A DNA stretch of 43,041 bases from Patescibacteria group bacterium. GTDB lineage: Bacteria; Patescibacteriota; Patescibacteriia; Patescibacteriales; GWC2-42-12. The position numbers and the translations under genes are program-made. Every line of letters starts with the position of its first letter. Positions within the stretch are counted from its first letter, which is position 1. The notes under the pieces are model-generated. The model made no database searches, was not told the DNA's origin, and saw only the letters and a list, made by a program, of their open reading frames with translations. The stretch covers positions 120,791-163,831 of the forward strand of contig JAQVNC010000001.1 in the NCBI GenBank assembly GCA_028703305.1, written 5' to 3'. Below, piece after piece: positions 38,598-43,041 of this stretch.

Positions 38598-38610
38598 TTT
38601 ATAACTTAAA

Positions 38611-38616
38611 TAATTT
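38611..38616 (+). promoter_or_regulatory. Weak -10-like box before pilT
   Basis: TAATTT ends 8 bases before ATG 38625, the spacing of the leaderless group, but the box is weak. Confidence 0.3.
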
Positions 38617-38624
38617 TCAATCAT

Positions 38625-39680
38625 ATGATCATGCAAGAAATTTTTCAATTATCAGTTAAGAAAGGCGCCTCGGACATCCATCTGGTTGTTGACGCCCCGG
38701 CTTTATTAAGAATTGACGGCGAATTAATTCCGATAGACCCTAAAAAAGTTTTATCAAAAAAAGATATTGAGCAAATGGTTTTGCCGCTGCTCTCCGAAGA
38801 GCAGAAGAAAAGATTGATTGCCGAGAAAGAATTGGATTTTGGCTATGAAGATGATCATGAAACCAGATTTAGAATAAATTTGCTTTACGAAAGAGGCAAT
38901 CTGGGCTTGGTGGCGAGAGTCATAACCGATGCTATCCCCACCTTGGAAGATTTGGGTATGCCTAAAGTGGTTTATGATTTGCTTAATTTGCAGCAAGGCT
39001 TGATTTTAGTAACCGGCCCGACCGGTTGCGGCAAATCATCCACTTTAGCCGCCATGATAAATTATATCAATCAGCAAAGAAGCTGCAGTATCGTTACGCT
39101 TGAAGATCCGATTGAATTCAGGTTCAAGCATGATAAAAGCGTTGTTACGCAAAGGCAGTTGGGCAGTGATATGGTTTCTTTCGCCGACGGCTTAAAGCAT
39201 GTTTTAAGGCAAGACCCGAATGTGATTATGGTGGGCGAGATGCGCGACCTGGAAACTATCGGCACAACCATTACTTTGGCCGAGACCGGGCATCTGGTTT
39301 TAGCCACTTTGCATACTTACAGCGCGGCGCAAACGATTGACCGCATCATTGATATTTTTCCGCCCCATCAGCAGACGCAAGTCAGGATGCAATTGTCCAT
39401 GACGCTGGCGGCGGTCATTTCCCAGCGCCTCTTAGTTAAAAACGGCGGCGGACGCATCGCGGCCAGAGAGATTCTAATCAATACTCCGGCCGTTTCCAAT
39501 TTAATCAGGGAAAGTAAAATCGCCCAGATTAAAACCGTGATTGAAACCAGCTCTAAAGAAGGCATGGAAAGCCTGGATCATAATTTAAAAAGGCTGTATG
39601 ACGCCAAAATTATTTCCAAAGAAAACGCGCAAGCCCATATGAATAATCCTGAATTATTGGAAAGGTTTAGGATAATATAA
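38625..39680 (+). CDS. pilT: Type IV pilus retraction ATPase PilT
   Basis: Hexameric ATPase that retracts type IV pili. 351 residues: N-terminal ASDIHLVVDAPALLRIDGEL (15-34), Walker A GPTGCGKS (131-138), the Asp box TLEDPIEF (158-165), Walker B VIMVGEMRD (200-208), the His box TGHLVLATLHT (221-231), and the PilT-type motif AVSNLIRESKI (usually AIRNLIRE), which separates it from PilB. ATG 38631 is an alternative start two codons on. Many CPR keep type IV pili, probably for attachment to hosts. No other pilus gene is in the window. It ends before the rRNA promoter. Confidence 0.95.
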   Translation: MIMQEIFQLSVKKGASDIHLVVDAPALLRIDGELIPIDPKKVLSKKDIEQMVLPLLSEEQKKRLIAEKELDFGYEDDHETRFRINLLYERGNLGLVARVITDAIPTLEDLGMPKVVYDLLNLQQGLILVTGPTGCGKSSTLAAMINYINQQRSCSIVTLEDPIEFRFKHDKSVVTQRQLGSDMVSFADGLKHVLRQDPNVIMVGEMRDLETIGTTITLAETGHLVLATLHTYSAAQTIDRIIDIFPPHQQTQVRMQLSMTLAAVISQRLLVKNGGGRIAAREILINTPAVSNLIRESKIAQIKTVIETSSKEGMESLDHNLKRLYDAKIISKENAQAHMNNPELLERFRII

Positions 39681-39720
39681 ATAGCTAATTTTAGATAATA
39701 TTTTTTAGCGGTTAAAGCAC

Positions 39721-39748
39721 TTGACATATTTTATACATCCTGTATAAT
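39721..39748 (+). promoter_or_regulatory. Strong promoter of the 23S rRNA unit
   Basis: TTGACA 39721-39726, 16-base spacer, TATAAT 39743-39748. The predicted start is near 39755, giving a 330-base leader before mature 23S. Confidence 0.85.
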
Positions 39749-39778
39749 ACCAGTTAGTTAAATCTTCAATACCATTAT

Positions 39779-39820
39779 ATGAAAATACTTTCATTATTCA
39801 TTAAACTTACAAGCGGTTAA
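39779..39820 (+). CDS. Possible 13-residue leader peptide
   Basis: ATG 39779 to TAA 39818-39820 encodes MKILSLFIKLTSG. There is no Shine-Dalgarno, and it begins about 24 bases after the predicted transcript start. The last codons (AGC GGT TAA) are part of the 5' strand of an antiterminator-like stem. It is supported only by this arrangement; it may not be translated. Confidence 0.35.
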   Translation: MKILSLFIKLTSG

Positions 39821-39869
39821 GTCTGGCTGATTTTTGCGCATTAACTTACCGCTTGACAGGCGGTTTTTT
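39811..39869 (+). terminator. Attenuator-like terminator/antiterminator pair
   Basis: Terminator: ACCGC (39848-39852) with GCGGT (39860-39864), T6 at 39864-39869. Competing stem: AAGCGGTTAAG (39811-39821) with CTTACCGCTT (39845-39854), one bulged T. The two structures share ACCGC and cannot form together. Confidence 0.5.
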
Positions 39870-39905
39870 GTTTCTCTAAAAATTTTTTCTCGTAGCTCGT
39901 AATTA

Positions 39906-39967
39906 GCAACTCACAACTCTGGGTTGCAAATTACAGGTTATGAAAATAACGCGAACTTTAACAATCA
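39906..39967 (+). promoter_or_regulatory. boxB/boxA-like rRNA antitermination signals
   Basis: Hairpin GCAAC/GTTGC (39906-39927) followed by CTTTAACAAT (39956-39965), which matches the core of bacterial rrn boxA (GCTCTTTAACAAT). A boxB-then-boxA order is that of rRNA leaders. A CACACTTTT/AAAAGTGTG hairpin (40059-40081) then abuts the 23S 5' end. Confidence 0.55.
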
Positions 39968-40318
39968 GTTAAATAAAAATAAATAAAAAGTAAAAAGTAA
40001 TTAGAGAACTAAGCATCTAAAATATTATTAGCTATTAATAATAGATAAAAACAATACACACACTTTTAAAACAAAAGTGTGGGAAAATCTCATTAAGGGT
40101 ATATGGTGGATGCCTTGACTCAAGAAGACGATGAAGGACGTAGCAGCCTGCGATAAGCCTCGGTTAGGTGGCAAGCAACCTTTGACCCGAGGATGTCCGA
40201 ATGGGGAAACCTGTTCCGATTAATATCGGAACGTCCGCCAGCTGAATACATAGGCTGGTGAGACGATTACCCGGCGAATTGAAACATCTTAGTAGCCGGA
40301 GGAAAAGAAAAAAATAAT

Positions 40319-40367
40319 GATCTCTAATCAGATGGTGAAAATCGATGTTCGCATCTGATTAGCGATC
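40319..40367 (+). other. 23S extra helix 1
   Basis: GATCTCTAATCAGATG with CATCTGATTAGCGATC, about 15 bp, inserted where E. coli has a short AAATCAACCGAG segment (near base 155-160). Confidence 0.6.
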
Positions 40368-40709
40368 TGCATTCTCCTAGTAGTGGCGAGCGAACGGGGA
40401 ACAGTCTAAACCTTTTAAACCGCGTATTTCTGATCCACTTCGGTGGAGAGGTTATATTGAAGGATCTGGGTCCATATGTTTATTAGGGGTTGCAAGATAT
40501 TTGTTATTGCTTCCAGAAAAGCAAGGTAGAGGTAAACATAAGATAATTCACTAGTTGAAGCGAGCTGGAAAGCTCTGCCAGAGCGGGTGATAGCCCCGTA
40601 AGCGAAAGGAATTATTACTCTGCGATAACTATCTTAAGTACTGCGGGACTCGTGAAATCCCGTACGAAGCCGGGTCGACTATGACCCAAGACTAAATACT
40701 TCTTGAGAT

Positions 40710-40746
<37 letters not shown>

Positions 40747-40805
40747 CATCCCGTTAAGGGAGATGAAATAGTATCTGAAACCATATACTTACAAGGAATC
40801 GGAGT

Positions 40806-40908
40806 CCCCCTACGCTCTTTGCTCCGCAAAGAGCTACGGAGGACAAGCCCGTTAAATTTTAGCGGCTTGTCCTCCGTAGCTCCGAACGAAGTGAGGAGCG
40901 TAGGAGGA
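40806..40908 (+). repeat. 23S insert 2: family C cruciform
   Basis: Outer stem CCCCCTACGC with GCGTAGGAGG. Hairpin GCTCTTTGC-TCC-GCAAAGAGC. Central stem TACGGAGGACAAGCC with GGCTTGTCCTCCGTA. Third hairpin GCTCC...GGAGC. It is at the E. coli helix 25 region (about base 545). Confidence 0.75.
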
Positions 40909-41024
40909 TGACGGTGTGCCTATTGAGGAATGAGCCAACGAGTTTGCTGTATGTGGCTTACATAATTCCGCAAAGCGGAAGCATGTGTAGTGAAAGCGAG
41001 GGTTAATAGCCCGTCTCTTACTTA

Positions 41025-41054
41025 TTAGAAAGTAGGTTTAAACCTCCTTTCTAA
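41025..41054 (+). other. 23S extra helix 3
   Basis: TTAGAAAG-T-AGGT...ACCT-C-CTTTCTAA, an A/T-rich insert between conserved segments. Confidence 0.5.
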
Positions 41055-42137
41055 TTTTTAAGAAAGTCGCATATACAAGACCCGAAGCCGTGTGATCTAG
41101 CCATGATCAGGTTGAACCCTCGAGAAATCGAGGGGGAGGACCGAACCCACTAGCCGTGCAAAACTAGGGGAAGAATCGTGGTTAGAGGTGAAATTCCAAT
41201 CGAACTCGGCAATAGCTGGTTCTCCTCGAAATAGCTTTTGGGCTAGCCTCGAGTGTTTCTTTCTGGGGGTAGAGCACTGAATGAGGACAGGTCGCAAGAT
41301 ACTGTCCTTAACCAAACTCCGAATACCAGAAAATTAAGCTCGGGAGTCAGACTATGGGCGCTAAGGTTCATTAGTCTAAAGGGAAACAGCCCTAATCGCA
41401 ATCTAAGGTCCCTAAATATATGCTAAGTGTGAAAGGTGGTGTCGCGACTGCGACAACTAGGAGGTTGGCTTAGAAGCAGCCATCCTTTAAAGAAAGCGTA
41501 ATAGCTCACTAGTCAAGTTGCCGCGCGCCGAAAATATATCGGGGCTAAGCATATTACCGAAGATGCGGGTTTCCTCGCTTTACGCGAGGGAGCGGTAGAG
41601 GAGCATTCTAAATCCGCTGAAGCTTAAATGTGAATTTGGGTGGAGGATTTAGAAGAGAGAATGTTGGCATGAGTAGCAAAAAGGCAGGTTAAAACCCTGC
41701 CCACCGAAAACTTAAGGTTTCCTGGGCAACGCAAATCGACCCAGGGTTAGTCGGTCCTAAGACGAGGCCCGTGTAGTGCGGGCGTAGCCGATGGATGAGC
41801 TGGTTAATATTCCAGCACTGCCGTAATCTCCGATGGGGGGACGCGGTTTAAAAGTTTGAGCGTTTTTAATGGTATGAACGTTAATGGCGTAAGAAATAGG
41901 CCCAGGCAAATCCGGGCCAACATTTTCTCGCGTTGTTAAAAGACGAAACCTCTGGTGGAGTCAATTCAGATGGATAAACCGCCCAGAAAAACCTCTAGGT
42001 CGCCGCAAGGCGAAAGGATTATGGCAACCGTACCGTAAACCGACACAGGTAAGTGAGGCGAGAAGCCTAAGGTGTACGAGAGAACCTTCGTTAAGGAACT
42101 CGGCAAAATAGCGGTCGTAAGTTCGCAATAAGACCTG

Positions 42138-42250
42138 CCCTCCTACGCTTTTTACTTCGTAAAAAGCTACGGAGGGCAAGCCCTCTTGGCATTTAAATGC
42201 TTAAAGGGGCTTGCCCTCCGTAGCCCGAAACGGAGTGAAGGGCGTAGGGG
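42138..42250 (+). repeat. 23S insert 4: family C cruciform
   Basis: Same layout as 40806-40908: outer CCCTCCTACGC with GCGTAGGGGGG; hairpin GCTTTTTAC-TTC-GTAAAAAGC; central TACGGAGGGCAAGCCC with GGGCTTGCCCTCCGTA; third hairpin GCCC...GGGC. It is at the helix 63 region (about E. coli 1720-1740). Confidence 0.75.
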
Positions 42251-42416
42251 GGCCGCAGCTAAAGAATCCAAGTGACTGTTTAACAAAAACACAGCTCCCT
42301 GCTAACTCGTAAGAGGATGTATAGGGGGTGATGCCTGGCCAGTGTCCGAACGTTAAGGGGAGAGGTCATTCCGTAGCAATACGGAGGCAGCTTTAAACCT
42401 AAGCGCGGATGAACGC

Positions 42417-42491
<75 letters not shown>

Positions 42492-42991
42492 AACTTGGAT
42501 ACTGTCTCAACGAAGGACTCGGTGAAATTGCAAGACGAGTAAAGATGCTCGTTAACCATAGTTGGACGAAAAGACCCCGTGAAGCTTTACTATAGCTTGA
42601 TATTGAGTTAGGGGTACGCATGTTCAGTATAGGTGGGAGTCTGCCGCAAGGCAGACGCCAGTGAGATACCACCCTTGTGTGCTTTTAATTCTAACCCTTG
42701 TCCGTGAATCCGGACTGGGGACAGTATCTGGTGGGTAGTTTGTCTGGGGCGGATGCCTCCCAAAGAGTAACGGAGGCGTTTACAAAGGTTGGCTATCCCG
42801 GGATGGAAATCCGGGAGATAGTGTAAAGGCACAAGCCAGCTTTACTGCAAGACCTGCAAGTCGAGCAGTCGCGAAAGCGGAACTTAGTGATCCGACCGTA
42901 CGAAATAGGACGGCGGAAGCTCATCGGATAAAAGCTACTCCGGGGATAACAGGCTAGTCACGCCCAAGCGTCCACAGCGACGGCGTGGTTC

Positions 42992-43024
<33 letters not shown>

Positions 43025-43041
43025 GTGGAGAAGCTCCCAAG

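Follow-up and report, generated by a model that had tools for sequence, protein, structure and literature searches.

The window analyzed here, a stretch of 43,041 nucleotides, is the terminal part of a 163,831-base contig from a 925-kb Patescibacteria (CPR) genome (G000) and closes within a 23S rRNA gene (positions 40083 to 43041, + strand; Rfam RF02541, 2094 bits), which is truncated by the window end. This gene stands alone, the sole 16S gene found being located approximately 137 kb away on the same contig (C37:23678 to 25166), and it contains two palindromic inserts of approximately 100 nt (40805 to 40908 and 42137 to 42253), the arms of which are 81 to 84% identical and which resemble a repeat element that has spread to two 23S sites.

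Upstream of the 23S gene, a gene for a T2SSE-family (PilT-like) ATPase (38625 to 39680; Pfam PF00437) is followed by a sigma-70-type promoter, TTGACA-N16-TATAAT (39721 to 39748, + strand), which matches the consensus at 12 of 12 positions and from which an RNA start at approximately 39755 is predicted. On the same strand lies a leader ORF of 13 codons, encoding MKILSLFIKLTSG (39779 to 39820; ATG at 39779 to 39781, TAA at 39818 to 39820), whose last sense codons and stop codon fall within strand 1, AAGCGGTTAAGT (39811 to 39822), the 5′ strand of an antiterminator assigned by folding and covariation. Strand 1 is predicted to pair, with one bulge, with strand 2, ACTTACCGCTT (39844 to 39854), which may alternatively pair with strand 3 to form an intrinsic terminator (39848 to 39869), an ACCGC..GCGGT hairpin with a T-run that is supported by sequence and by its pairing in 78 leaders; the ACCGC segment (39848 to 39852) is common to both structures. 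The loop between the stop codon and strand 2 carries a T-tract (39831 to 39835, + strand), inferred to be a possible RNA polymerase pause site. A preliminary description of this DNA had listed a strong promoter, a 13-codon ORF, an antiterminator whose 5′ strand includes the end of that ORF, and a terminator sharing its ACCGC strand, all of which were recovered. Between the terminator and the 23S gene are found GAACTTTAACAAT (39953 to 39965, + strand), a putative boxA-like site of which a similar version occupies the same place in most relatives inspected, and, immediately 5′ of the 23S gene, a hairpin (inverted repeat, 40059 to 40081, + strand), similar in the relatives inspected, which by inference is probably part of 23S 5′ processing.

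The promoter at 39721 to 39748 was the best of nine promoter-like sites within positions 38600 to 40200, and no site scoring 9/12 or more was detected on the + strand from the terminator to the 23S gene, in keeping with the earlier claim that no better promoter occurs there. Across the order, the promoter hexamers match at 12/12 in 77 of 78 leaders, with a spacing of 16 in 75, while the best promoter-like site from the terminator to the 23S gene (n = 76) scored below 9 in 41 leaders, 9 in 24, 10 in 10, and 11 in 1. Because perfect upstream hexamers are thus retained and the downstream sites are weak, the upstream promoter very probably drives 23S transcription, as judged from sequence.

Considered in isolation, the window is not decisive: the leader fold has a z score of -1.71, with 13 of 200 shuffles folding equally well, and two terminator-like sites were found against 1.8 expected. 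It is through sequence comparison among genomes that chance is excluded. Rfam reported no known leader or riboswitch at gathering score within the window, and below that score only chance-level matches (E values of 2.2 to 8).

Conservation and distribution of the leader arrangement

A DNA search of 41 genomes recovered the full arrangement in 26 of the 27 loci that included a 23S 5′ end, the exception being locus L017 of genome G019, which has the promoter and no switch. The covariance model built on those leaders matched 78 of the 111 genomes of the order, once per genome, with the 23S gene located 77 to 655 nt downstream in 76 cases and the other two matches lying at contig ends. The 33 order genomes without a model match comprised 19 without a 23S 5′ match, three with weak matches that were excluded, and 11 that were read by eye, nine of which harbor a diverged version of the switch and two of which (G019 and G044) possess a 23S gene and no switch. 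Overall, the arrangement is carried by 85 of the 87 order genomes for which a 23S 5′ end was readable; it is present in the window's genome and in all three other genomes of the same genus that were searched, such that the refuting condition named in the preliminary description, disappearance of the ORF or stems from close relatives, was not fulfilled. Loci L017/L255 (G019) and L265 (G044), in which the 23S promoter occurs without the leader-ORF switch, represent natural losses and offer a useful comparison. Among named records matching the element, 14 were of Patescibacteria type, several of them Candidatus Falkowbacteria, which NCBI places in the Parcubacteria group, three of the 14 being included by inference as order genomes G039, G021, and G010; three further records were unrelated and were taken as chance.

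Beyond the order, the 78-sequence model matched at least 78 of the 380 genomes of the class, including 48 outside the order, and at least 26 of the 379 genomes of the phylum, including 21 outside the class, these counts being lower bounds due to strict filters and the scoring of 10 candidates per genome. A 23S gene was located downstream in 32 of the 33 out-of-order matches examined, the exception being L180. In a phylum sample of 60 23S upstream regions, for which the 23S gene was located by DNA query, the model matched 22 at an E value of up to 1 and 20 at an E value below 0.1, the matches at L224 and L242 being weak (E values of 0.2 and 0.37). A strict, model-free detector for the complete arrangement, which misses 13 of the 78 known cases, recovered 15 of the 60 regions against 1 of 1,200 dinucleotide shuffles; a relaxed version recovered 18 of 60 against zero to two per 60 in shuffles, its additional finds at L195 and L230 being weak. 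The background of the detector amounted to one other site on both strands of the window and two sites in 212 kb (counted strand-wise) of Patescibacteria contig sequence. Combining model matches with E values below 0.1 and strict detector finds gave 23 of the 60 regions, and in the remaining 37 no switch was detectable by these stricter criteria. Two detector finds, L234 and L236, display the same anatomy built on an unrelated stem sequence, CCCTTT. The 3′ end of a 16S gene was located upstream of the 23S gene in six of the 60 loci, none of which was switch positive. By eye, L226, L235, and L253 appear to hold further diverged or non-ATG switches missed by both detectors, and these were excluded from all counts. 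A separate motif, ACCTCT(G), which we presume to resemble the anti-Shine-Dalgarno sequence, was observed between the promoter and the 23S gene in L195, L197, L198, L211, L213, L179, L188, L215, and L243 of other Patescibacteria.

The model-free detector found no leader-ORF switch ahead of 16S genes (0 of 20 16S upstream regions). The 16S leaders (L031 of the window's contig, G000:C37, approximately 340 nt ahead of 16S, and L033 to L051) carry a terminator-like hairpin of their own, most commonly of the form ACAGUGAU..AUC(C/U)CUGUUUUU and often with a retained mismatch, a loose pattern for which occurs in 15 of 20 leaders and in none of 400 mononucleotide shuffles; this hairpin possibly represents a second, different control, acting on 16S.

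Selection on translation of the leader ORF, and predicted alternative pairings

In all 78 covariance-model matches, the ATG nearest to the model start opens an ORF of 10 to 14 codons, the length being 13 codons in 58 leaders, 12 in 15, 14 in 3, and 11 and 10 in one each, with TAA (50), TGA (17), or TAG (11) as the stop codon. Between the ATG and strand 1, a distance of 28 to 37 nt which the ORF spans, stop codons occupy 2 of 824 codons in the ORF frame, one of them arising from a misassigned strand 1 in L097 (a row retained in the counts), against 153 of 823 and 111 of 771 in the other frames, which rules out a chance ORF. Of the 52 leaders whose strand 1 core lies in codon phase 1, 46 have a stop codon that begins 5 nt into this core, whereas in the 25 with codon phase 2 it begins at 7 (22 leaders) or 4 (3 leaders) and never at 5. 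Given that the stop tracks the frame whenever the latter is displaced against the stem, selection acts on the presence of a stop at strand 1 as well, and translation of the leader ORF is, on this comparative sequence evidence, selected.

The same cannot be said of the encoded peptide. Substitutions at codon positions 1, 2, and 3 numbered 101, 86, and 99 of 442 each, and synonymous changes numbered 43 against 39.6 expected (47 pairs, not independent), while 76 of the 78 peptides are distinct. No shared codon run and no control codons were found among the leader peptides, whose composition is led by K, L, I, S, and R; 72 of the 78 have a Lys or Arg within five residues of the C terminus, the C-terminal residues being dictated by the stem sequence. 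An arrest peptide of the TnaC, ErmC, or tlrB type was rejected because the peptide sequence is not conserved, and an amino acid attenuator of the trp/his type because no codon run is shared and the downstream gene is 23S rRNA rather than a biosynthetic operon. Cells thus seem, from these patterns, to need the arrival of a ribosome at the stop codon and not a particular peptide. Shine-Dalgarno-like sites precede 4 of the 78 leader ORFs and 2 of the 31 window genes; as the window genes also rarely possess such sites, there was no signal of a weak or special leader translation start. At L217 (G479), the leader ORF apparently begins with GTG after a Shine-Dalgarno-like AAAGGAG, while leader ORFs of the order mostly have an ATG without such a site.

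As the RNAalifold consensus on the MAFFT alignment (A1) paired strand 1 with strand 3 and was uninformative, pairs were tested on a model-based alignment (A2), which was fitted to the 1:2 structure and is, therefore, biased towards it. On A2, strands 1 and 2 are paired in 80.2% of cells, and the paired cells, double-change cells, and covariation score each exceeded all 500 shuffles; two coarser measures, double-change pairs and further pair types, remained within the shuffles (196 and 148 of 500). The terminator pairing between strands 2 and 3 is intact in 390 of 390 cells across the 78 leaders. In the window, the free RNA is predicted to form the 1:2 helix with a probability of 0.98 and the terminator with a probability of 0.017, the latter rising to 0.999 when a ribosome placed at the stop codon covers strand 1, and such masking yields the terminator in all 78 leaders, although such a fold partly presupposes its outcome, strand 1 being masked by design. 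Folding, covariation, and masking together describe an ORF overlapping an antiterminator and an intrinsic terminator that exclude each other. The translation-controlled switch that had been suggested from the single sequence is supported, over a chance ORF, by selection on frame and stop position and agrees with the masked folds.

Without a ribosome, the equilibrium fold of 41 of the 78 leaders favors the 1:2 helix and that of 33 the terminator, whereas in RNA ending just past strand 2 the 1:2 helix is formed in 75 of 78; because equilibrium favors the 1:2 helix in just 41, many leaders would need a cotranscriptional folding order. Of the 78 leaders, 63 have TTTT in the loop that separates the stop codon from strand 2, where 36 would be expected; the tract mostly lies 8 to 13 nt past the stop. 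A pause there would, by analogy with the NusG-dependent pausing described for the tlrB leader (PMC6851288), aid the cotranscriptional folding order.

Proposed mechanism and rival explanations

It is considered likely that transcription from the 23S promoter passes through an attenuator which reads general translation, with translation lowering 23S output in a negative feedback. RNA polymerase would produce strand 1, comprising the end of the ORF and its stop codon, followed by strand 2 and then by strand 3 and the U-tract. In the absence of a ribosome at the stop codon in time, the 1:2 helix would form as the RNA emerges, thus blocking the terminator and allowing 23S transcription, while a ribosome at the stop codon would hide strand 1, leaving strands 2 and 3 to pair and transcription to end after approximately 115 nt; a pause at the loop T-tract would synchronize the ribosome and polymerase. 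Abundant active ribosomes would thereby yield less 23S and scarce ribosomes more, a direct negative feedback. That translation should lower 23S output follows from the position of the stop codon within strand 1, where a ribosome frees strand 2. The preliminary description had proposed that translation favors termination: the geometry and the masked fold agree with this, while the polarity remains a geometric inference without experimental support. The parts, their conservation, a selected open frame, a selected stop at strand 1, and two exclusive pairings are what genome comparison establishes at the level of sequence; termination in cells, polarity, the ribosome-supply signal, and the synchronizing pause at the T-tract are all inferred, no transcript, ribosome-profiling, or reporter data being available. 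Several further points weigh against the feedback reading: G019 and G044 have a 23S gene and lack the switch, most 23S upstream regions of the phylum sample showed no detectable one, an amino acid shortage that slows elongation would under this logic raise 23S, which looks unhelpful, and the switch is found on 23S and not on 16S, which leaves subunit balance unexplained. The idea that the switch substitutes for a missing stringent response was rejected, as RelA/SpoT is present in G000 and in 93 of the 111 order genomes.

The same parts could operate with the opposite polarity, leader translation favoring readthrough, for example through a trailing ribosome which suppresses termination or pausing, so that 23S rises. 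We regard this as unlikely, even though it would fit a growth-linked rRNA output, has a counterpart in the Escherichia coli ampC attenuator, where ribosome binding is said to favor readthrough, and draws support from the 33 leaders whose ribosome-free equilibrium favors the terminator. What speaks against it is that nearly all leaders have their stop codon in or beside the antiterminator strand, and that the ORF extends over the 28 to 37 nt from the ATG to strand 1; a ribosome there frees strand 2 and cannot cover the 2:3 pairing. It is also conceivable, if very unlikely, that readthrough is set by a factor bound to the antiterminator or its T-rich loop, either a ligand or a protein (for example a Nus factor or ribosomal protein), the ORF modulating this or merely opening the structure. 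The excess of T-tracts in the loop (63 observed, 36 expected) and the boxA-like site downstream would be explained in this manner, yet that site lies 3′ of the terminator, no known leader or riboswitch family is matched in Rfam, the statistics on frame and stop indicate selected translation, and the stem sequences differ in the distant lineages L234 and L236.

A separate small gene or RNA, encoding a microprotein or producing a terminated sRNA and situated by chance 5′ of a 23S gene with another promoter, is highly improbable: while such a unit would account for the possession of a promoter and terminator of its own, the element is linked to 23S in 76 of 78 cases (the other two being at contig ends), its peptide is not conserved, and just 11 of 76 regions from the terminator to 23S contain a promoter scoring at least 10/12. 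Scarcely tenable is an amino acid or antibiotic attenuator, in which stalling at particular codons or on the nascent peptide controls 23S; the Lys or Arg residues near the C terminus of 72 of 78 peptides do recall basic arrest motifs, yet those residues are set by the stem sequence, and the peptide, distinct in 76 of 78 leaders, displays neither purifying selection nor a shared codon run.

Relation to known attenuators and biological meaning

In trp/his-type attenuators, a short leader ORF precedes exclusive hairpins, and the position of the ribosome selects the terminator or antiterminator. The proposed translation-sensing 23S switch shares the leader ORF, the two exclusive hairpins, and the choice by ribosome position, but it lacks control codons, its own stop codon lies in the antiterminator strand, and its target is a structural RNA rather than an amino acid operon. 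Elongation within bacterial rRNA operon leaders is controlled by Nus/boxA antitermination, to which the 23S switch is similar in acting on elongation within an rRNA leader and from which it differs in being built on an ORF; that mechanism was rejected as the explanation because it needs boxA 5′ of the terminator to be overridden, whereas the boxA-like site (39953 to 39965) follows the terminator (39848 to 39869). The growth-rate attenuator of E. coli ampC (Jaurin 1981) reportedly senses ribosome availability, with ribosome binding favoring readthrough. That system resembles the 23S switch in sensing general ribosome availability and not one amino acid, and differs from it in controlling a protein gene, in its readthrough upon ribosome binding, and in having no such alternative antiterminator helix.

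The earlier statement that known attenuators control amino acid operons proved too narrow, given that attenuation is described for an antibiotic resistance gene (PMC6851288) and also for ampC (PMC9241650). The former, Bacillus subtilis tlrB (yxjB), is under a leader-peptide attenuator with a NusG-dependent pause between the ORF and the gene, in which a ribosome stalled by the drug keeps termination from occurring and the arrest motif is important (PMC6851288). The tlrB attenuator and the 23S switch are alike in leader peptide, terminator, and ribosome-polymerase timing, the pause in the 23S switch being inferred, whereas in the latter a ribosome is expected to bring about termination and the peptide lacks conservation. 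In the B. subtilis rplJL attenuator, the operon is reported to be autoregulated by its own ribosomal protein complex (PMC4538822), and this represents attenuation of a ribosome component, though not of an rRNA gene. In a full-text search of the open-licence literature, no publication describing an attenuator or a leader ORF upstream of 23S rRNA was found.

It has long been asked how bacteria adjust rRNA synthesis to translation, and the 23S switch, if true, would be a leader-ORF attenuator on rRNA itself which senses translation generally with a device of a few dozen RNA bases, spread through a large, mostly uncultured group with reduced genomes. It would also offer a compact natural sensor of ribosome activity. 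The 16S and 23S genes lie apart in 27 of 34 circularized CPR genomes (PMC8172020), and organisms in which they do so would lose the balancing of subunits afforded by a shared operon. A broader reading, which we regard as about as likely as not, is that wherever Patescibacteria have a 23S gene standing on its own, rRNA synthesis is set by a direct RNA feedback loop, 23S transcription being ended by a ribosome through translation of a peptide that is itself dispensable; such a system would constitute a protein-independent ribosome counter, possibly inherited from an ancestor of much of the phylum.
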